A DNA stretch of 64,000 nucleotides from Bacteroidetes bacterium GWF2_33_38. Lineage in GTDB: Bacteria; Bacteroidota; Bacteroidia; Bacteroidales; GWF2-33-38. Shown here piece after piece: positions 30,788 through 42,695 of the stretch (position 1 is the stretch's first letter; every line of letters starts with the position of its first letter). Position numbers and translations under genes: made by a program. Location: assembly GCA_001769505.1 (NCBI GenBank), contig MEOF01000047.1, forward strand, positions 1 to 64,000, written 5' to 3'. The notes below the pieces were generated by a model. It made no database searches. It saw only the letters and a program-made list of their open reading frames with translations, and had not been told where the DNA came from.

Positions 30788-32374
30788 ATGTCAGACGAGC
30801 AAAAAAAGCAACTACAACAACAACTTTGGAATATAGCCGACACACTACGTGGCAAGATGGATGCCGATGAGTTTCGTGATTATATTCTTGGCTTCATTTT
30901 TTACAAATATTTGTCCGAAAAAATGCACATTTATGCTGATGAAATCCTTAAAGAAGATGGAATTACGTATATGAGCATTGATGAAAATTCAGCCGATGGG
31001 AAAAAAATTCTCGAAGCAATAAAAGAAGAAGCATTAGGCAAATTGGGTTACTATTTGAAACCTTCCGAATTGTTTAGCGAAGTTGCAAAACGTGGAAACG
31101 CAAATGTTGTTGACGAAAATGCCGAAGTTCAAAGCAATTTTATTCTTCAAGATTTGAAAAAAATTCTTACGTCAATTGAGCAAAGCACGATGGGAACTGA
31201 TAGTGAAGATGATTTCGATAATTTGTTTGAAGATTTAGACCTAACATCTACCAAACTTGGAAAAACCGAAGAACAAAAAAACACCTTGATTTCAAAAGTT
31301 TTGGCTCATCTCGATAAAATTGATTTTCAACTTCAAAACACCGAAATTGATGTGTTGGGCGATGCTTACGAATATCTTATTGGGCAATTCGCATCAGGTG
31401 CAGGAAAAAAAGCAGGAGAATTTTATACTCCGCAAGAAGTTTCAAAAATTTTAGCAAAATTAGTAACCGTTGGAAAAACCAAACTTAAATCGGTTTACGA
31501 CCCAACTTGCGGTTCAGGTTCGTTGTTGTTGCGAGTTGCAAAAGAAGTTGAAAGTGTTTCGAGTTTTAGCGGACAAGAACTAAACCGAACAACTTACAAT
31601 TTGGCTCGAATGAATATGATTTTGCACGATGTTCATTATCGAAAATTCGACATCAAACAAGAAGATACTTTAGAACATCCACAACATTTGAACGAACGTT
31701 TTGAAGCAATAGTTGCAAATCCGCCATTTTCGGCAAATTGGAGTGCAAATCCGCTGTTTATGGGCGACGATAGATTTAGCCAATACGGAAAACTTGCCCA
31801 AAGCAGTAAAGCCGATTTTGCTTTTGTGCAACATATGATTTACCAATTAGCCGAAAACGGAACAATGGCAATTGTGTTGCCTCACGGAGTGTTGTTTCGT
31901 GGCGGAGCAGAAGGTCATATTCGCCAATATTTAATTGAAGATAGAAATTATCTCGATGCAGTTATTGGTTTACCTGCAAATATTTTTTATGGAACGTCAA
32001 TTCCAACTTGCATTTTGGTTTTCAAAAAGTGTAGAGAACAACCAAATAATATTTTGTTTATTGATGCAAGTAATAATTTCGAGAAAGTTAAAAACCAAAA
32101 CGTTTTGCGTGAAGATGATATTGATAAAATTATTGAAACTTATCGTGAACGAAAAACCGAAGAAAAATATTCGTACGTTGCACAAATTGCTGAAGTAAAA
32201 CAGAACGATTACAACCTAAACATTCCACGTTATGTTGATACATTTGAAGCCGAAGAAACAATAAATTTGGAAGCAATTTGTGCCGAAATTATTACCCTCG
32301 ACAAACAACTGATTGCAACCGACAAAACAATTGCCGATTTCTGCAAACAATTAAATATTTCGACACCATTTTAA
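30788..32374 (+). CDS. hsdM: Type I restriction-modification methyltransferase subunit HsdM
   Basis: A 528-residue N6-adenine methyltransferase. The N-terminal HsdM_N domain shows LWNIADTLRGKMDADEFRDYILGFIFYKYLSEK-type sequence. The S-adenosylmethionine site is DPTCGSG (residues 238-244) and the catalytic NPPF is at 311-314. GEFYTPQEVSKILAKL lies just before the core, as in the family. The protein looks complete. It needs HsdS for target recognition; hsdS lies about 900 bp downstream, past a RAYT gene and a decayed hsdS copy, and hsdR is 7.4 kb away. Confidence 0.95.
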   Translation: MSDEQKKQLQQQLWNIADTLRGKMDADEFRDYILGFIFYKYLSEKMHIYADEILKEDGITYMSIDENSADGKKILEAIKEEALGKLGYYLKPSELFSEVAKRGNANVVDENAEVQSNFILQDLKKILTSIEQSTMGTDSEDDFDNLFEDLDLTSTKLGKTEEQKNTLISKVLAHLDKIDFQLQNTEIDVLGDAYEYLIGQFASGAGKKAGEFYTPQEVSKILAKLVTVGKTKLKSVYDPTCGSGSLLLRVAKEVESVSSFSGQELNRTTYNLARMNMILHDVHYRKFDIKQEDTLEHPQHLNERFEAIVANPPFSANWSANPLFMGDDRFSQYGKLAQSSKADFAFVQHMIYQLAENGTMAIVLPHGVLFRGGAEGHIRQYLIEDRNYLDAVIGLPANIFYGTSIPTCILVFKKCREQPNNILFIDASNNFEKVKNQNVLREDDIDKIIETYRERKTEEKYSYVAQIAEVKQNDYNLNIPRYVDTFEAEETINLEAICAEIITLDKQLIATDKTIADFCKQLNISTPF

Positions 32375-32391
32375 ATATTTTAGAAATATTT

Positions 32392-33075
32392 ATGACCGAT
32401 AAATTTCAACATAAATATCGAATTGCTTCTGCAAGATTGCAAAATTGGGATTATAGATGGAATGCTGCATATTTTGTAACCATTTGTACAAAAAATAGAG
32501 ATAATTATTTTGGTAAAATCGTAAATCAAAAAATGGAATTATCGAATGTTGGTTTATTGGCAAATGTTTTATGGTTCGAAATCAATAATCATTCTGAAAA
32601 TATCGAATTGGGCGAATTTGTTGTTATGCCAAACCATGTGCATGGAATTTTAATTTTTAATAATGATATTTCCGATGGTTCCAACGTAGAGACAAGGCAT
32701 GCCTTGTCTCTACAGACCCAAACAATTGGACAAATGCGATTTCAAAATCAAGGAAAAAATTCATTATCATCAATTGTTGGTGCGTACAAATCGGCGGTTA
32801 CAAAACACGCAAACCGATTGGGTTTTGATTTTGCGTGGCAAACACGTTTTCACGACCATATTGTTCGTGATGCGAAATCATTTGAAAAAATTCAACATTA
32901 CATTTACAATAATCCATTAAATTGGACCGACGATAAATTTTTTAATTCAACCGTTGTTGCCAACGTATCGGGCGTTGCCAACGTAGAGACAAGGCATGCC
33001 TTGTCTCTACCACCACCAATGCCACCACCACCAATCAACCAACCGAATAATCAAACAAAAAAACAAAACCAATGA
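32392..33075 (+). CDS. REP-associated tyrosine transposase (RAYT, Y1_Tnp)
   Basis: A 227-residue Y1 transposase. The HUH motif is in VVMPNHVHGIL (His82 and His84), and the catalytic tyrosine is in QHYIYNNPLNW (Tyr170 or Tyr172). These enzymes act on REP hairpins as single strands. Two copies of the island's palindrome lie inside the gene in frame. They add NVETRHALSL peptides at residues 98-107 and 197-206, the first shortly after the HUH motif and the second after the catalytic tyrosine. The start is ATG 32392, 17 bp after hsdM; the frame stays open upstream inside hsdM. The last codon overlaps a truncated hsdS copy. Confidence 0.88.
   Translation: MTDKFQHKYRIASARLQNWDYRWNAAYFVTICTKNRDNYFGKIVNQKMELSNVGLLANVLWFEINNHSENIELGEFVVMPNHVHGILIFNNDISDGSNVETRHALSLQTQTIGQMRFQNQGKNSLSSIVGAYKSAVTKHANRLGFDFAWQTRFHDHIVRDAKSFEKIQHYIYNNPLNWTDDKFFNSTVVANVSGVANVETRHALSLPPPMPPPPINQPNNQTKKQNQ
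32686..32713. repeat. 28-bp REP palindrome A, in frame in the RAYT gene
   Basis: A perfect 28-bp palindrome: half-site GTAGAGACAAGGCA, centre GCATGC, then its complement. It is read in frame as VETRHALSL within the transposase. Four more copies or variants lie between 32983 and 41211. Confidence 0.95.
32983..33010. repeat. 28-bp REP palindrome B, in frame in the RAYT gene
   Basis: Identical to the 28-bp palindrome at 32686 and read in the same frame. It is preceded by the short duplication GTTGCCAACGTA (about 32956-32985). It encodes the start of the proline-rich tail of the transposase. Confidence 0.95.
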
Positions 33076-33188
33076 ACCAAAACAACCAAATACCAAAATT
33101 ACGGTTTCCTGAATTTTCTGATGCGTGGAAAAATAAAAAATTATTTAAAACAAATTGTAAACGAATATATACAAATCATTATAATTGA
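33072..33188 (+). pseudogene. Truncated 5' copy of hsdS
   Basis: A 38-codon frame whose first 23 or so codons (MNQNNQIPKLRFPEFSDAW) repeat the start of the intact hsdS at 33275. The DNA at 33081-33140 and 33284-33343 matches in about 55 of 60 positions. After that the copy diverges and stops at 33186-33188. It overlaps the RAYT stop codon as ATGA, so it could still be translated by coupling. It is most simply the remnant of a duplicated or replaced specificity gene. Confidence 0.75.
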
Positions 33189-33222
33189 CACGAAACGTAT
33201 TTTAATCGTACGTATTACGTCC

Positions 33223-33250
33223 GTAAAGACAAGGCATGCCTTGTCTCTAC
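33223..33250. repeat. REP palindrome C, between hsdS remnant and hsdS
   Basis: The same palindrome with one change (GTAAAGAC for GTAGAGAC). It is intergenic, 25 bp before the hsdS ATG. The hairpin could affect hsdS translation. The ATG inside the palindrome gives a spurious longer hsdS frame. Confidence 0.9.
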
Positions 33251-33274
33251 AGAAAAAAAACAAATAAAACAAAA

Positions 33275-34426
33275 ATGACAACAAACAACCAAATACCAAA
33301 ATTGCGGTTTTCTGAATTTTTTGATGCGTGGGAAAATAAAAAAATTGAAGATTTGCTTCAAATAAAATATGGGAAAGACCAAAAACAGGTTATTTGTGAT
33401 AATGGTAAATATCCAATTTTAGGAACAGGAGGAGAAATGGGAAGAACAAATTCCTTTTTATTTGATAAACCTTCTGTATTAATTGGCAGAAAAGGAACTA
33501 TTGATAAACCAAAATATATGGATACTCCTTTTTGGACAGTCGATACATTATTTTATACCGATATTTTCCAAAATACTTTTCCAAAATGGTTGTTTTATAA
33601 ATTTGAAACGATAAATTGGTATTTATATAACGAAGCATCGGGAGTTCCAAGTTTAAGTGGTTCAACAATATATAAAATTCCTGTTAACATTCCATCACTT
33701 CCCGAACAAACCAAAATAGCAACATTTCTCACAGCAGTTGACGAAAAACTCACACAATTAAAACGAAAAAAAGAACTTTTATCGCAATACAAAAATGGTA
33801 TAATGCAACAAATTTTCTCACAAAAATTGAGATTTAAAGATGATAATGGTAACGATTTTGAAGATTGGGAAGAAAAAAAGCTGGGGGAAGTTTCTGATGT
33901 AAGAGATGGAACTCACGACTCTCAAAAATATATCGAAAAAGGTTATCCTTTTATAACATCCAAAAACTTGTTGAAAAATGGAAATATTGACTTTGAAAAC
34001 GTTAGTTATATAAGTGAAAAAGATTATAAAAAAATAAACGAACGTTCTAAAGTAAATATAAATGATATTTTATTTGGAATGATTGGAACAATTGGAAATC
34101 CTGTTTTAGTTAAAAACGATGGATTTGCAATAAAAAACGTCGCATTAATTAAAGAAAAGAAAGGTTTGCTAAATATATATTTAATTCATTTTCTAAAAGG
34201 GGGTTCAATCACTCAACAATTTTTTGAACAAAATACAGGAGGAACACAGAAGTTTCTATCTTTAAGCGTAGTTAGAAGTTTGTTAATCAATCTTCCTTGC
34301 CTATCCGAGCAAACCAAAATCGCCAATTTTCTATCAGCACTTGATGAAAAAATAAGCAATGCCGAAAATAAAATAACCAAATTGGAACAATGGAAAAAAG
34401 GCTTGTTGCAGAGTATGTTTTGTTAA
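33275..34426 (+). CDS. hsdS: Type I restriction-modification specificity subunit HsdS
   Basis: A 383-residue HsdS with two target-recognition domains and the conserved separating helices. The first conserved region is SLPEQTKIATFLTAVDEKLTQLKRKKELLSQYKNGIMQQIF near residues 145-187, and the second is CLSEQTKIANFLSALDEKISNAENKI near the end. Each recognition domain sets one half of the bipartite DNA site. The start is the ATG at 33275 (MTTNNQIPK); the earlier ATG at 33236 lies inside a REP palindrome. Length is normal. Confidence 0.93.
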   Translation: MTTNNQIPKLRFSEFFDAWENKKIEDLLQIKYGKDQKQVICDNGKYPILGTGGEMGRTNSFLFDKPSVLIGRKGTIDKPKYMDTPFWTVDTLFYTDIFQNTFPKWLFYKFETINWYLYNEASGVPSLSGSTIYKIPVNIPSLPEQTKIATFLTAVDEKLTQLKRKKELLSQYKNGIMQQIFSQKLRFKDDNGNDFEDWEEKKLGEVSDVRDGTHDSQKYIEKGYPFITSKNLLKNGNIDFENVSYISEKDYKKINERSKVNINDILFGMIGTIGNPVLVKNDGFAIKNVALIKEKKGLLNIYLIHFLKGGSITQQFFEQNTGGTQKFLSLSVVRSLLINLPCLSEQTKIANFLSALDEKISNAENKITKLEQWKKGLLQSMFC

Positions 34427-34439
34427 AAAAAGAATAGTT

Positions 34440-35105
34440 ATGAGTAAAACATTTAATATTTATTGTGATGAAAGTTGTCATATTCAAAATGACCACAAAA
34501 AATTTATGCTTTTGGGCAGTGTAAGTTGTGCATATAACCAAGTTAAACGGCATACCGAACGAATAAATGAATTAAAAGATAAGCACAAGTTTAATGCTGA
34601 AATTAAATGGATAAATGCTTCCCCTTCTAAAAAACAATTTTATATAGATTTAATTGATTATTTTTTCGATACCGACCTGCGATTTAGAGCAATAATTATT
34701 GACAAAACTCAGATAAACACTGATGATTATGACGCATTTTATTATAAAATGTACTATCAATTATTAAATCACAAAAAAAATAGTGAGTATAAATACAATG
34801 TTTATTTTGATATAAAAGACACTTTGAGTGCCATTAAGGTGCAAAAATTACGTGATATACTAAATATTAAATATGGTGTTTTTAATAATGTTCAGAATAT
34901 TCACTCGCACGAAAGTATATTAATGCAATTGGCAGATTTAATTATGGGGGCTATTTCTTATAATTTAAATGTAAACAAAAATAATATTTCTCTAACTAAA
35001 AAAAGTATTATTGATAAAATTGCTAAACACAGCAAACAAGAATTAATAAGTAGTTCAACTTTTAATGAAAAAAAATTAAACCTGTTTTTTATTGACTTAA
35101 AATAA
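34440..35105 (+). CDS. DUF3800 protein (RNase H-like fold)
   Basis: A 221-residue protein with the DUF3800 layout: NIYCDESCH at residues 6-14, AEIKW near 50, a middle YFDIKDTLSA and a late SHESILMQLADLIMGAISYN. The acidic residues in these places resemble an RNase H-like active site, and the family often lies in mobile or defence loci without assigned function. It begins 13 bp after hsdS. The BECR-like gene starts 1 bp after its stop, so both appear to be in the hsd operon. Confidence 0.8.
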   Translation: MSKTFNIYCDESCHIQNDHKKFMLLGSVSCAYNQVKRHTERINELKDKHKFNAEIKWINASPSKKQFYIDLIDYFFDTDLRFRAIIIDKTQINTDDYDAFYYKMYYQLLNHKKNSEYKYNVYFDIKDTLSAIKVQKLRDILNIKYGVFNNVQNIHSHESILMQLADLIMGAISYNLNVNKNNISLTKKSIIDKIAKHSKQELISSSTFNEKKLNLFFIDLK

Positions 35106-36546: not shown

Positions 36547-37509
36547 ATGAATATCCCAGACATACATAAAAAGTTTAATACAAGAAACAGATGTATTTTA
36601 TATTTAGAAACTCTGAAATGGAATAAGAAGCCTGTTTGTCCTTTCTGTGATTCTGAAAAGGTTTATAAAAGAATGTTGTCAATAAAGTATCATTGTAATA
36701 GTTGTAATAAAGACTTTACTGTATTGCACGATACTATATTTGAAGAAAGTAAATTGCCATTATCAAAGTGGTTTGTTATTATTGGTTTAATGTTAAACGC
36801 AAAACAAGGTATTTCAGCAAAAGAGATACAGCGTAATGTTGGAACGACATATAAAACTGCTTGGTATTCTGCTATGCGAGTTCGATGTGCAATGATAGAC
36901 CATTGTAATATTGAACTTGAAAATGTTGTCGAAATGGACGAAACCTATGTAGGAGGAAAGCCTAGATACAAGTATTCTAAAAAAGACAATGAACCAAATC
37001 TATCAAAACTAACATCGAAACGAGGTCGAGGCACTTCAAAAGTTCCTGTTGTTGGTATTGTAGAAAGGAAAAACAAGATTGTTTTAAAAGTAGTTGATAG
37101 ACTTACTTCTAAAAATCTTGTTGGTATGTTAAAAGAGTTCGTTAATACAGACACATCAATTGTCGTAACAGATGAATTTAAGAGCTACAAAGCCTTTGAT
37201 GAAATTGTACAGCATTACACCGTTAATCATTCAAAGAAAGAATATGTTAAAGGAATGATGCACACAAATACAATTGAGGGCTTTTGGAGTATTGTAAAGA
37301 ATAGCATTAAGGGAAATTACAAAGCAATAAGCAAAAAGTATTTGCCTTTTTATTTAGTTCAAGCACAATACAATTACAATCACAGAAATTATAGTGCGAA
37401 TTTATTTGAGAAGTTTTTAAAACAGGCGTTAGAAACTGATAAACCTATGATTGGCTATAAGCCTGTAAAAAATGTTAATAAGATAGTTTACAAAACTTGT
37501 AAAAAATAA
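36547..37509 (+). CDS. IS1595-family transposase (ISXO2-like)
   Basis: A 320-residue transposase. An N-terminal zinc ribbon has CPFC (residues 31-34) and CNSC (50-53). A helix-turn-helix-like stretch NAKQGISAKEIQRNVGTTYKTAWY follows. The ISXO2-like catalytic domain has EMDETYVGG (Asp131), VTDEFKSY, and HTNTIEGFWSIVK near the end, consistent with a DDE-type site. Length is normal and the frame is intact, so it may be active. Confidence 0.93.
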   Translation: MNIPDIHKKFNTRNRCILYLETLKWNKKPVCPFCDSEKVYKRMLSIKYHCNSCNKDFTVLHDTIFEESKLPLSKWFVIIGLMLNAKQGISAKEIQRNVGTTYKTAWYSAMRVRCAMIDHCNIELENVVEMDETYVGGKPRYKYSKKDNEPNLSKLTSKRGRGTSKVPVVGIVERKNKIVLKVVDRLTSKNLVGMLKEFVNTDTSIVVTDEFKSYKAFDEIVQHYTVNHSKKEYVKGMMHTNTIEGFWSIVKNSIKGNYKAISKKYLPFYLVQAQYNYNHRNYSANLFEKFLKQALETDKPMIGYKPVKNVNKIVYKTCKK

Positions 37510-38297: not shown

Positions 38298-38834
38298 ATG
38301 AAAATCGTTCGTATATTCGCAGAGAAATTATTTTCATTTCATTTCGATGGAGAAACTGAAAATGAATTAGAACGAGTATTAAACCTATGGAACGACACCA
38401 ATTATTTATTCAAATTTGCAAAAAAAAATATTCCCAATATTGATTTAAGTAAATATATTCAAGATAGAATTGATGATGTTGAACAGATAAATAATATTAT
38501 TGATGAAATTTCAAATAATGACCAAACAAATTTAAGTACATTTTTTGAGCCACTTAAAACAACAGATTTTGGATTAAAATTATTAACTCTACAAAAAGGT
38601 AAAACAAGACAACAAAAAAGAAGTAATCATTTGCGAATTTACGCAATAAAAATTGATGAAAATTGCTATGTAATAACTGGTGGAGCAATTAAGTTAAGTC
38701 AAAAAATGCACGACCACCCAACGACATTAATTGAATATGAAAAGTTAGTTAAATGTCGAGAATTTTTAAGAGAAAATGGAGTTATTGACGATGAATCTTT
38801 TTTTGAACTAATAATAGAACTAAATGAACAATAA
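38298..38834 (+). CDS. Putative RelE/HigB-like toxin of a TAC system
   Basis: A 178-residue protein. The C-terminal half, about residues 110-175, has RSNHLRIYAIKIDENCYVITGGAIKL, then a conserved IEYEKLVKCREFLRENGVIDD. The basic strand followed by LRIYAIKI and an invariant-looking GGAIKL resembles RelE/BECR folds seen beside HTH antitoxins in Bacteroidota. The N-terminal half is not recognised. The next two genes, an HTH protein and a SecB-like protein, make it the toxin position of a toxin-antitoxin-chaperone cassette. The toxin call is from position and fold resemblance only. Confidence 0.6.
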   Translation: MKIVRIFAEKLFSFHFDGETENELERVLNLWNDTNYLFKFAKKNIPNIDLSKYIQDRIDDVEQINNIIDEISNNDQTNLSTFFEPLKTTDFGLKLLTLQKGKTRQQKRSNHLRIYAIKIDENCYVITGGAIKLSQKMHDHPTTLIEYEKLVKCREFLRENGVIDDESFFELIIELNEQ

Positions 38835-39291
38835 AGAAAAATTTTTAGCTTTAGTATCAAACGAAAAAACCGATACACTTGCTAAAATCAAAGAAAGAGT
38901 AAAAAACATAGCAATGTTACGAGAATCTCAAACAATTGCTTTGAAAGTTTTATTGAAATTAGATGAGCTTGGTTGGTCTCAAAAAACATTGGCTGAAAAA
39001 ATGGAAGTTAGCCCCCAACAAATAAGTAAAATTGTTAGTGGAAAAGAAAATTTAACCATTGATACACAAGTTAAACTTCAAAAATTGTTAGATATTCCAA
39101 TTTTGGCTTCGTACTATGAAAATAATACAAGTCAGTATGTAGCAACAACAACAATTTCGTCAAAACGACTTGGTTATAAGCATCATCAACCTATTCAAAA
39201 AGAAAGCGAACCTGCGATTATAAATAACATAACAAGTTCTCTTCGGGTTTCATATAATAGTTTTAATCCCGAACAAAAAGAAGTAGCATAA
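38824..39291 (+). CDS. HTH antitoxin with C-terminal extension (HigA-like)
   Basis: A 155-residue protein with an XRE-type HTH at about residues 50-95: LDELGWSQKTLAEKMEVSPQQISKIVSGKENLTIDTQVKLQKLL. After residue 100 a 55-residue unstructured-looking tail follows. In known TAC systems such a tail is the chaperone-addiction (ChAD) segment that the SecB-like partner must cover. It overlaps the toxin gene by 11 bp and the chaperone start by 1 bp. It probably represses the operon at the palindrome at 38280. Confidence 0.75.
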   Translation: MNNKEKFLALVSNEKTDTLAKIKERVKNIAMLRESQTIALKVLLKLDELGWSQKTLAEKMEVSPQQISKIVSGKENLTIDTQVKLQKLLDIPILASYYENNTSQYVATTTISSKRLGYKHHQPIQKESEPAIINNITSSLRVSYNSFNPEQKEVA

Positions 39292-39821: not shown

Positions 39822-42695
39822 ATGACATTTCAACCTGAAGCAACATTAGAAAATAATTTTGTAACTCAACTCGATAGTTTGGGTCATAAATTTGTTGCTA
39901 TAACTTGCGAGGCGGAATTGTTGGCAAATTTAAAATCTCAACTCGAAAAACACAATCAAATACAAATTTCCGATAAAGAATTTGAAAAAATTCTCAATCA
40001 TCTAAACAAAGGAAATGTATTTGAAAGAGCCAAAATTTTACGAGATAAAATGCACCTTTTGCGTGATAATGGAGAAAGCACATACATCGAATTTTTGAAC
40101 AAAGAGCATTGGTGTCAAAATCAATTCCAAGTTACTCGCCAAGTATCAGTTGAGGGAAAGTATCTTAATCGCTACGATGTTACAATTCTTATCAATGGTT
40201 TGCCGTTGGTTCACATCGAGTTAAAACGTAGAGGAGTAGAACTGAAAGAAGCCTTCAATCAAATAAATCGTTATCAACGCCATTCGTTCAGTTCATCGCA
40301 CGGATTGTTCAATTACGTTCAAATATTTATAATCAGTAACGGAGTAAACACTAAATATTACGCAAACAACAAAACTCAAACCTTTAAGCAAACCTTCTAT
40401 TGGGCAGATGTTGAGAACAGTAAAATTACCAATCTCGAACAATTTGCATCAGTATTTTTAGAACCTTGCCACGTTTCAAAAATGATTTGTCAATACATTG
40501 TTCTGTCAGAAGTAGATAAAATTTTGATGGTGCTTCGTCCGTATCAATATTATGCAACCGAAGCAATAATTGAACGAGTTAAACACAGCCGAAAGAATGG
40601 CTACATTTGGCATACAACAGGTTCGGGCAAAACATTAACATCGTTCAAAGCAAGTCAAATTTTGAAAGATTTGCCAAAAGTTCACAAAGTTGTTTTTGTT
40701 GTTGACCGTAAAGATTTAGATTATCAAACCACAAAAGAATTTAATAGTTTCTCGAAAGGAAGTGTTGATGGAACTGATAATACTCAAACATTGGTAAATC
40801 AACTTTCTGACGATACAAAACTAATTGTAACAACCATTCAAAAACTGAATACTGCAATAAGCAAAAAAAAGTATTTGTCAAAAATGGAGCAGTATAGACA
40901 AGGCAGTGCCTTGTCTCCACGAATAATATTCATTTTCGATGAGTGCCACCGTTCGCAATTTGGCGAAACTCACAATAGAATTAAATCATTTTTCAAAAAC
41001 CCACAAATGTTTGGCTTTACAGGAACGCCAATATTTGCCGAAAACGCTGTGAAAAATGAATTAGGAATGCGAACAACCAAAGAACTTTTCGACGAATGTT
41101 TGCACAAATATGTAATTACCGATGCAATCAGAGATGATAATGTTTTGAAGTTTTCAATCGAATATGTTGGTCGTTATCGCCGTAAAGACAAGGCAAGCCT
41201 TGTCTCCTTACCAAGCGAAATTGATATTGAAGTTGAAGATATTGATAAAGAAGAATTGCTAACATCTCCTGAGCGATGCGGAAAAATTGCCGATTACATA
41301 ATTGCAAATCACAGTCGCAAAACTCACGGAAAAGAATTTACAGCAATGTTCTGTGTTAGTAGTGTTGATGCACTTATCCAATATTATAACATTTTTAAAA
41401 AGAAAAAAGAAAACGGAGAACATAAATTGAAAATTGCAACCATTTTTAGTTACAACTCCAACGAAGATGATAAAGATGCAACAGGATTTATTCCTGATGA
41501 TTTAGATATGGTTGCAGAACCACAAGCCGAATATGGTTTGCACCAACATAGCCGTGAAAGTTTAGACGATTTTATTGAAGATTACAACCAAATGTTCAAT
41601 ACCAAATTCTCGACCAAAGACAGTCAATCGTTCTATAATTATTACAACGACATTGCAAAAATGGTTAAGAACAAACAAGTTGATATGCTTTTGGTTGTAA
41701 ATATGTTTTTAACAGGCTTTGACAGCAAATTTCTCAATACGTTGTATGTTGACAAGAATTTAAAATATCACGGCTTAATTCAAGCCTTTTCACGCACAAA
41801 TAGAATTGTAAACGAACAAAAATCGCAAGGAAATATTGTTTGTTTCCGAAATTTAAAACAAAACACCGACGATGCAATTGCATTGTTTTCAAACAAAGAT
41901 GCAAAAGATGTAATTTTAATGCAACCGCTCGAAGATTACATCGACAAGTTTAATGAAGCATTACAAAAATTAAAAGAAATTACGCCTTCCGTTGATAGCG
42001 TTAACAACTTGCCAAGCGAAACCGAAGAATTTGAATTTGTAAAGGCTTTTCGTGAATTGATGCGTTTAAAAAATACGCTTACAACATTCTCCGATTTCAC
42101 TTTCGATGCTTTGGAAATGGAAGAACAGGAGTTTGAAGATTACAAAAGTAAATATCTTGATATTCACGATAAAGTTCGCAAAGTAAAAGAAAAAGTTTCA
42201 ATTCTTGATGATGTTGATTTTGAATTAGAACTTATTCATCGTGATGAAGTAAATGTTGCTTACATATTGAATTTGCTTATCAAAATGAAATTGGCAAATC
42301 CTGAAGAAAAAGACACTAAACGAAAAGAAATAAGCGACTTATTATCGGGCGAAGCACAGTTAAGGAGCAAACGAGAACTGATTGAAAAATTCATCGAAGA
42401 GAACCTTTTACACATAACTGAAATTGAAAATGTTCCCGAAGAATTTGAAAAGTTTTGGGGCGAAGAACGCAAAAATGCTTTAATCAAACTTAGTGAAGAA
42501 GAAAATCTCGTTCCTGAAAAATTACAATCTATTATCGACAACTATCTGTTTACCGAACGCAAACCACTAAACGATGAAATTGTAGATTCTCTAAAATCTA
42601 AACCCAAAATTCTTGAACGAAAAAACATCGTTGAAAGAATAATTGATAAAATAGTGAATTTTGTCGATACTTTTGTTGAGGGAATGGCGGGGTGA
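39822..42695 (+). CDS. hsdR: Type I restriction endonuclease subunit HsdR
   Basis: A 957-residue HsdR. The N-terminal nuclease has LPLVHIELKRRG at about residues 127-138. The helicase core has Walker A HTTGSGKT near 263-270, DECHRSQFG (DEAH box position) at 373, and later motifs GFTGTPIF, LLVVNMFLTGFDSKFLNTLYVDK and IQAFSRTNR. The length and motif order look complete. Two REP palindromes are inserted in frame at about residues 357-367 and 453-463, at surface-loop positions between helicase motifs. It cleaves DNA far from the HsdMS target after translocation. Confidence 0.94.
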   Translation: MTFQPEATLENNFVTQLDSLGHKFVAITCEAELLANLKSQLEKHNQIQISDKEFEKILNHLNKGNVFERAKILRDKMHLLRDNGESTYIEFLNKEHWCQNQFQVTRQVSVEGKYLNRYDVTILINGLPLVHIELKRRGVELKEAFNQINRYQRHSFSSSHGLFNYVQIFIISNGVNTKYYANNKTQTFKQTFYWADVENSKITNLEQFASVFLEPCHVSKMICQYIVLSEVDKILMVLRPYQYYATEAIIERVKHSRKNGYIWHTTGSGKTLTSFKASQILKDLPKVHKVVFVVDRKDLDYQTTKEFNSFSKGSVDGTDNTQTLVNQLSDDTKLIVTTIQKLNTAISKKKYLSKMEQYRQGSALSPRIIFIFDECHRSQFGETHNRIKSFFKNPQMFGFTGTPIFAENAVKNELGMRTTKELFDECLHKYVITDAIRDDNVLKFSIEYVGRYRRKDKASLVSLPSEIDIEVEDIDKEELLTSPERCGKIADYIIANHSRKTHGKEFTAMFCVSSVDALIQYYNIFKKKKENGEHKLKIATIFSYNSNEDDKDATGFIPDDLDMVAEPQAEYGLHQHSRESLDDFIEDYNQMFNTKFSTKDSQSFYNYYNDIAKMVKNKQVDMLLVVNMFLTGFDSKFLNTLYVDKNLKYHGLIQAFSRTNRIVNEQKSQGNIVCFRNLKQNTDDAIALFSNKDAKDVILMQPLEDYIDKFNEALQKLKEITPSVDSVNNLPSETEEFEFVKAFRELMRLKNTLTTFSDFTFDALEMEEQEFEDYKSKYLDIHDKVRKVKEKVSILDDVDFELELIHRDEVNVAYILNLLIKMKLANPEEKDTKRKEISDLLSGEAQLRSKRELIEKFIEENLLHITEIENVPEEFEKFWGEERKNALIKLSEEENLVPEKLQSIIDNYLFTERKPLNDEIVDSLKSKPKILERKNIVERIIDKIVNFVDTFVEGMAG
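40892..40920. repeat. REP palindrome D, in frame in hsdR
   Basis: A variant of the island palindrome: AGACAAGGCA-G-TGCCTTGTCT at 40896-40916 with degenerate GTAT/CCAC flanks. It is read as RQGSALSPR just before the DEAH-box segment IIFIFDECHRS. The surrounding protein continues normally, which suggests an in-frame insertion into a loop. Confidence 0.88.
41182..41211. repeat. REP palindrome E, in frame in hsdR
   Basis: A second variant in hsdR: AGACAAGGC-AA-GCCTTGTCT at 41186-41205. It is read as KDKASLVSLP between VGRYRR and SEIDIEVEDID. The reading frame is kept. Confidence 0.88.

Follow-up and report, generated by a model that had tools for sequence, protein, structure and literature searches.

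Two palindromes inside a type I restriction gene of a Bacteroidota genome: probable decayed copies of a REP from a RAYT gene in the same locus

Introduction

Two palindromes, one of 29 and one of 30 nt, lie in frame inside the hsdR gene of a type I restriction-modification locus of Bacteroidetes bacterium GWF2_33_38, and they raise the question of where such sequences come from and how an intact gene takes them up. The stretch of DNA that was analysed, here called the window, comprises 64,000 nt (positions 1 to 64,000 of contig MEOF01000047.1, or C47) of a 3.93-Mb, 70-contig genome, and its proteins have their relatives mostly in the Bacteroidota. RAYTs (REP-associated tyrosine transposases) cut and join REPs (repetitive extragenic palindromes) in vitro. 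To our knowledge no REP transposition event has been caught, and how REPs move is still an open question.

One class of these systems is of particular relevance here. In the available text of Quentin et al. 2018 (PMC6006769), the REPtrons of subclass 2.4 are described as typical of Bacteroidetes and Cyanobacteria, with “double foot” REPs of the form GT[AG]G...C[TC]AC and with in-frame REPs in the RAYT genes themselves, between the HuH and Y motifs. The same text also places REPs in “a variety of unrelated genes”.

Results

A RAYT gene with its own palindromes

The type I locus runs in the order hsdM, RAYT, hsdS, several cargo genes and hsdR. Its first part holds the following features:

30788-32374, + strand: hsdM, type I modification subunit
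32392-33075, + strand: RAYT (TnpA_REP) gene, Y1_Tnp, between hsdM and hsdS, with motifs NHVH, WQ and YIYNNP
32686-32713, + strand: double-foot REP GTAGAGACAAGGCATGCCTTGTCTCTAC, perfect, read in frame by the RAYT gene as VETRHALSL; falls in the loop that separates the HUH and W/Y motifs
32983-33010, + strand: another perfect REP, likewise read in frame as VETRHALSL, within the C-terminal extension of the RAYT ORF
33223-33250, + strand: REP copy with one mismatch, shortly before the likely start of hsdS
33275-34426, + strand: hsdS, type I specificity subunit, likely start 33275

Judged by its motifs, the RAYT is a TnpA_REP of subclass 2.4. It matches Pfam Y1_Tnp, and its segments MPNHVHG, FAWQTRF and HYIYNNP fit the key motifs NH[IFV]H, WQ and YIxNNP given for that subclass in Table 1 of the available text of PMC6006769. 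The second mark of the subclass, a variable, REP-containing in-frame insertion between the HuH and Y motifs, is present as well. Against the NCBIfam model NF047646 the protein scores 57 bits (E 2e-15, with positions 9-132 of the 146-position model matched), below the curated cut-off of 80, as is expected of a divergent subclass. The palindromes at 32686-32713 and 32983-33010 are perfect over 28 nt and run from GTAG to CTAC, with both feet of the double-foot pattern (5′ GT[AG]G and 3′ C[TC]AC).

The hsdS start at 33275 is favoured over the ATG at 33236, which lies inside a REP and belongs to the listed ORF, because the former matches the duplicated 5′ copy of the gene; the two 88-nt hsdS-start copies in the window are 83% identical. 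Directly downstream of hsdS is a gene for a DUF3800 protein (34440-35105), and an IS1595-type transposase gene (36547-37509) lies between hsdS and hsdR. A pair of small genes at 38298-39291, encoding a 178-aa unknown protein and a helix-turn-helix protein, resembles a toxin-antitoxin system by layout only.

Palindromes in the RAYT loop are common among relatives of this gene. An in-frame palindrome between the HUH and Y motifs, with many different cores, occurs at 25 of 40 RAYT loci, a count made with a strict perfect-stem test and excluding L138 as well as one uncertain call (L170). Translation of the loop uses more than one frame, giving peptides such as VETRHALSL or VETQNFASL in one and RDAMHCVST or RDAINRVST in another, and the retention of its palindrome in two different frames argues that the DNA recurs and not the peptide. 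The RAYT genes L107-L136 keep the outer arms GTAGAGAC and GTCTCTAC in the loop after the HUH motif, while the cores and the reading frame vary. Within the order, palindromes of the family GAGAC-NNN-GCATGC-NNN-GTCTC are patchily distributed, occurring in 52 of 295 genomes, and the control pattern gave zero in every genome listed.

Two palindromes inside hsdR

The distal part of the locus holds the restriction gene and the two palindromes in question:

39822-42695, + strand: hsdR, type I restriction subunit of the EcoR124I type, 957 aa, complete, all domains matched
40892-40920, + strand: REP copy at hsdR site 1, 29 nt, GTATAGACAAGGCAGTGCCTTGTCTCCAC, with foot GTAG changed to GTAT and one extra nt in the centre
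41182-41211, + strand: REP copy at hsdR site 2, 30 nt, GTAAAGACAAGGCAAGCCTTGTCTCCTTAC, with feet GTAA...TTAC and two extra nt

A preliminary description of this DNA had reported the two hsdR palindromes as in-frame REPs adding the peptides RQGSALSPR and KDKASLVSLP, and its coordinates, reading frame and peptides proved correct when the sequence was read again. Across site 1, HsdR reads ..QYRQGSALSPR.., of which (Q)YRQGSALSP(R) belongs to the element, and across site 2 it reads ..RKDKASLVSLP.., of which KDKASLVSL(P) does; site 2 is read in a different frame from site 1. Three further copies, those at 32686-32713, 32983-33010 and 33223-33250, lie beyond the coordinates covered by that description, and the link with a transposase went unmentioned in it.

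The copies at both sites differ from the RAYT's own REP, GTAGAGACAAGGCATGCCTTGTCTCTAC, by two substitutions plus one or two extra bases over 28 nt. Their feet are GTAT...CCAC (site 1) and GTAA...TTAC (site 2), in place of the intact feet of a double-foot GTAG REP. By sequence, the hsdR palindromes are decayed copies and not intact members of that class. A canonical REP would place a TAG stop in the frame of site 1, and the GTAT foot found there removes it. Single-strand folding of the two copies is still strong (z -5.4 and -3.7). Any substitution of GTAG ends binding and cleavage in the E. coli system, and other RAYTs tolerate some (PMC8266576); by analogy with E. coli, both hsdR copies, having no GTAG foot, are probably fixed fossils.

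One explanation would be coincidence, with ordinary HsdR residues encoded by DNA that happens to be palindromic. Searching with GAGACAAGGCNNGCCTTGTCTC at up to 3 mismatches gave 4 matches across the window against 0.00 expected, and a fuzzy search with the 28-nt consensus GTAGAGACAAGGCATGCCTTGTCTCTAC at up to 6 edits found exactly 5 places in the real window and none in 20 simulated windows. Moreover, the match is to the arm sequence of a multi-copy family and not to symmetry alone, and the residues of site 1 are missing in 53 homologues. The preliminary description had named, as the finding that would undo its reading, homologues carrying the same residues without the palindrome; nothing of the kind appeared in the alignment of those 53. 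With these results both that possibility and a chance origin were rejected, the latter having next to no probability left.

Copies across the genome

The genome holds at least seven copies in its 3.93 Mb. Five of them lie within an 8.5-kb stretch of this locus, and two are on contig C40, next to an orphan hsdS. The 16-nt core (GACAAGGC...GCCTTGTC) occurs six times, five at this locus and once beside that second hsdS, and the seventh copy, a diverged one, also lies beside it. Four of the five window copies are inside coding sequence. This is not the high-copy, mostly extragenic distribution of classical REPs, and the idea of a genome-wide REP family in this organism was rejected because the copies are so few.

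No HsdM or HsdR match is found within the 14 kb surrounding the C40 orphan hsdS. The succession of REP, truncated hsdS-start copy, REP and full hsdS is common to window positions 32983-33343 and to L137 6741-7137 on C40. The orphan HsdS (L137 5741-6883) shares 65.5% identity between its second half and residues 9-181, the first half, of the window HsdS (33275-34423); by this match, target-recognition domains seem to have changed position. A second RAYT of the genome, on contig C27 (44% identity), has a palindrome core of its own, GTAGGGACAGGTCGCGACCTGTCCCTAC, with one copy in frame (L138 8825; C27 60824-60851).

The host protein

HsdR has kept its nuclease, motor and C-terminal domains, with HSDR_N, SWI2/SNF2 motor, domain 3 and EcoR124_C all present in Pfam, PADLOC, PDB and Foldseek matches. 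Nearly all residues of its motifs TGSGKT, DECH and QAFSRTNR are invariant in 25 sequences. From the open frame and the intact motifs we infer selection to keep HsdR, as the preliminary description had proposed. The HsdR of EcoR124I (PDB 2w00, 4be7 and 6h2j) shares family and fold with it (HMMER E 1e-178) and is its top structural match, the top Foldseek matches having 35-38% identity; where the window protein has its two inserts, EcoR124I HsdR shows gaps.

The same absence is seen among closer relatives. Five extra residues at site 1 are absent from 53 of 53 HsdR homologues with 56-71% identity, and at site 2 the window protein exceeds its nearest relatives by 5-6 residues, in a loop whose length in this alignment varies even where there is no REP. 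The nearest relative, G001 (64% HsdR identity), has no inserts, no RAYT match and no GCATGC-type palindrome among those searched. An AlphaFold model, used for local context alone because its mean pLDDT is 69.6, places site 1 in a coil that follows helix 349-358 and precedes strand 368-372, the strand running into D373-E374 of the DECH box, and site 2 within coil 454-465, where pLDDT is below 50. The comparison with homologues that had been proposed earlier thus found the segments absent from relatives and both sites in predicted loops. The preliminary description had put one palindrome immediately before the DEAH-box strand, and in the model site 1 is indeed flanked by a helix on one side and by the Walker-B (DECH) strand on the other. 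Its central reading, that the palindromes are REP elements acquired in frame, is likewise supported: homologues lack them, and the hsdR of the window is open with all domains intact.

The position of site 1 beside the Walker-B strand, together with the fact that restriction subunits of several genomes bear such inserts, could be taken to mean that HsdR makes use of the peptides, or of the mRNA or DNA hairpins, perhaps to tune restriction or to switch it reversibly on and off. The peptides vary with site and frame, however (YRQGSALSP against KDKASLVSL), the sites show no conservation, and the peptides are missing from most homologues. The palindrome of the RAYT genes, kept in one loop in two frames, likewise speaks for recurrence of DNA rather than of peptide, and a functional role must be considered improbable.

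Restriction genes of other genomes

RAYT relatives lie near restriction genes more often than expected. Of 40 RAYT regions (0.57 Mb), 8 contained Hsd homologues, and of 40 control regions taken from those genomes (also 0.57 Mb), none did (Fisher p = 0.005); in this comparison the RAYT query itself came from such a locus, and the controls were contig starts, some of them short. A RAYT lies just upstream of hsdR at three of 59 named HsdR-homologue loci (L043, L071 and L074). This position differs from that in the window, which suggests that RAYTs reached restriction loci separately. REP-type palindromes inside the HsdR gene were found at none of the 59; with a RAYT nearby at just three, a general rule that HsdR proteins of this family carry REPs was rejected.

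In-frame REPs do occur in the HsdR of G099, G084 and G115, where they share the peptide VQTHG[RH]ASQ. They also occur in the HsdM of G115, which is 20 aa longer than its homologues, and in the HsdM of G084, a protein with 74% identity to the window HsdM. A sample chosen by the palindrome alone comprised 58 regions with 68 REPs, 51 of them away from contig ends. Of these 51, five lay in frame within genes other than RAYT genes: one for a type ISP/IIG enzyme, one for a type IIG enzyme, two for type IX-secreted proteins and one for a caspase-SUMF1 protein. Two of the five being restriction enzymes is, in so small a sample, suggestive of a preference for restriction genes. The preliminary description had held that functional genes rarely accept REPs. 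This is only half right: intragenic REPs are on record in the accessible text of PMC3733652, and the five copies of this sample are further cases.

Another HsdR (L167/L237 around 8446, in G099) has a GAGACGATTCATGAATCGTCTC palindrome after its DEAH box, and its relative L238 (G084) has the right half only; the palindrome was set aside as a case of clean insertion because of that half. The right arm, ATTCATGAATCGTCTC, is present in L238 and the left arm is missing there, which looks like completion of a palindrome by template switching. The same process might be invoked for the window, replication having perfected native near-palindromes on the spot with no mobile element involved. Template switching gives symmetry but not double identity to a distant element, whereas both hsdR sites share the arm sequence of the RAYT's REP, and perfect REPs are present in the same locus. 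We regard such a local origin at the hsdR sites as very unlikely.

Net gains shorter than the element

An element of 28 nt is not a multiple of three, so that its clean insertion would shift the frame and call for a compensating change. Where homologues fix the unoccupied length, the gains are smaller. Codon alignment puts the net gain at +15 nt for hsdR site 1 (element 29 nt) and at either +15 or +18 nt for site 2 (element 30 nt). The HsdM of G084 has gained +18 nt relative to 39 homologues, all of equal length there. A perfect 28-nt REP in the type IIG gene L280/L302 corresponds to only +3 nt, measured against a 77%-identical paralogue from the same genome and 20 other homologues, and the type ISP/IIG gene L272 has gained about +3 nt. 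The type IIG case, with its net gain of one codon, is located at L280 782-4612 and at L342 (genome G174). Wherever the unoccupied state is clear, net gains are 3-18 nt and never +28.

A net gain smaller than the element implies that 10-25 nt of host sequence were replaced, and REP copies appear to overwrite rather than simply insert. The frame-preserving insertion that the preliminary description had proposed stands as to the frame but needs correcting as to insertion: +15 nt at site 1 and +15 to +18 nt at site 2 fall short of the 29-30 nt of the element, so that host sequence was replaced as well as interrupted. Gains in multiples of three would follow from selection for frame; this does not explain the amount of host sequence that is missing. 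Because the feet of the hsdR copies are mutated, the original junctions are blurred, and homologues of 56-71% identity are too distant for the pre-insertion sequence to be rebuilt base by base.

It is conceivable that the footprint arose in two steps, the RAYT first making a simple insertion of 28 nt and separate deletions beside it later bringing the gene back into frame. The arithmetic allows it, as +15 and +18 are 28 minus 13 and 10, and a clean insertion would need some compensating change. At L280/L302, however, a 25-nt deletion would have had to abut a perfect REP and yet spare it, and the homologue segment is only 3 nt shorter. Two steps are quite possible even so, if not what we expect; replacement during the copying step is preferred to insertion with adjacent deletions as the putative cause. 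The single-strand chemistry of the RAYT enzyme family is described in PMC8266576 and in the available text of PMC6006769. More speculatively, and with considerable doubt, a single-stranded REP freed by RAYT may anneal at a partly matching lagging-strand template and replace 10-25 nt there, with restriction-modification genes, near which these RAYTs often lie, as favoured hosts. Such overwriting of the lagging strand would resemble the action of a natural recombineering oligonucleotide.

Discussion

Taken together, the hsdR palindromes very probably descend from the double-foot GTAG REP of a RAYT of subclass 2.4 in the same restriction-modification locus, as old copies that have since decayed. 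The observations behind this reading are the shared sequence family, a RAYT with in-frame REPs of its own, local clustering, absence from homologues, the kept frame, location in loops and short net gains. The RAYT of the window is the most likely source of the hsdR copies; the 8 kb between that source and the copies counts against it. As the known chemistry of the enzyme family would have it, RAYT would cut and rejoin its own REP as single-stranded DNA. The released strand could then be copied into nearby genes, with 10-15 nt of host sequence replaced at hsdR. Only events that left the frame open and landed in loops would survive in a working hsdR, and the copies would afterwards be passengers, having lost the GTAG feet needed for recutting.

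How far is this arrangement known? The window REPtron matches those in the available text of Quentin et al. 2018 (PMC6006769) in its NHVH, WQ and YIYNNP motifs, in its GTAG/CTAC feet and in its REPs within the RAYT gene, and that the REP-in-RAYT arrangement might be new was rejected on account of this publication. It differs from the cases described there in lying within a type I restriction operon, in having few REPs and in having two of them in hsdR; the main text of that paper makes no mention of restriction loci, and the word “restriction” is absent from it. Another precedent, in the accessible text of Di Nocera et al. 2013 (PMC3733652), is that of GTAG/CGTC REPs wholly inside ORFs, in frame and sometimes two per gene, which resemble the window copies in these respects; many intragenic REPs are reported there in DNA repair and replication genes. 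The GTAG families of that text are from Proteobacteria, Cyanobacteria, Chloroflexi and the PVC superphylum, with Bacteroidetes given for CGTC repeats only, and its accessible parts hold neither the term “restriction-modification” nor a replacement footprint. Rickettsia palindromic elements (RPE), as cited in the same text, are also in-frame palindromes in functional genes, with sequences that differ from those of the window; intragenic RPE-4 and RPE-6 are described there as CGTC repeats without association with a transposase gene.

Since in-frame genic REPs and REPs in subclass 2.4 RAYT genes are both published, the window is a case of a known kind of element in an unusual setting, with a replacement footprint whose cause we infer. 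In the accessible open-licence literature, the restriction-locus setting, the recurrent copies in restriction subunits and the footprint itself were not found.

The wider meaning is twofold. Copies in coding genes with many homologues give before-and-after footprints, and those described here are too short for clean insertion, which constrains any mechanism by which REPs move. A RAYT settled in a restriction locus and leaving palindromes in the subunit genes would also represent a small-scale route by which defence genes may gain short peptides.
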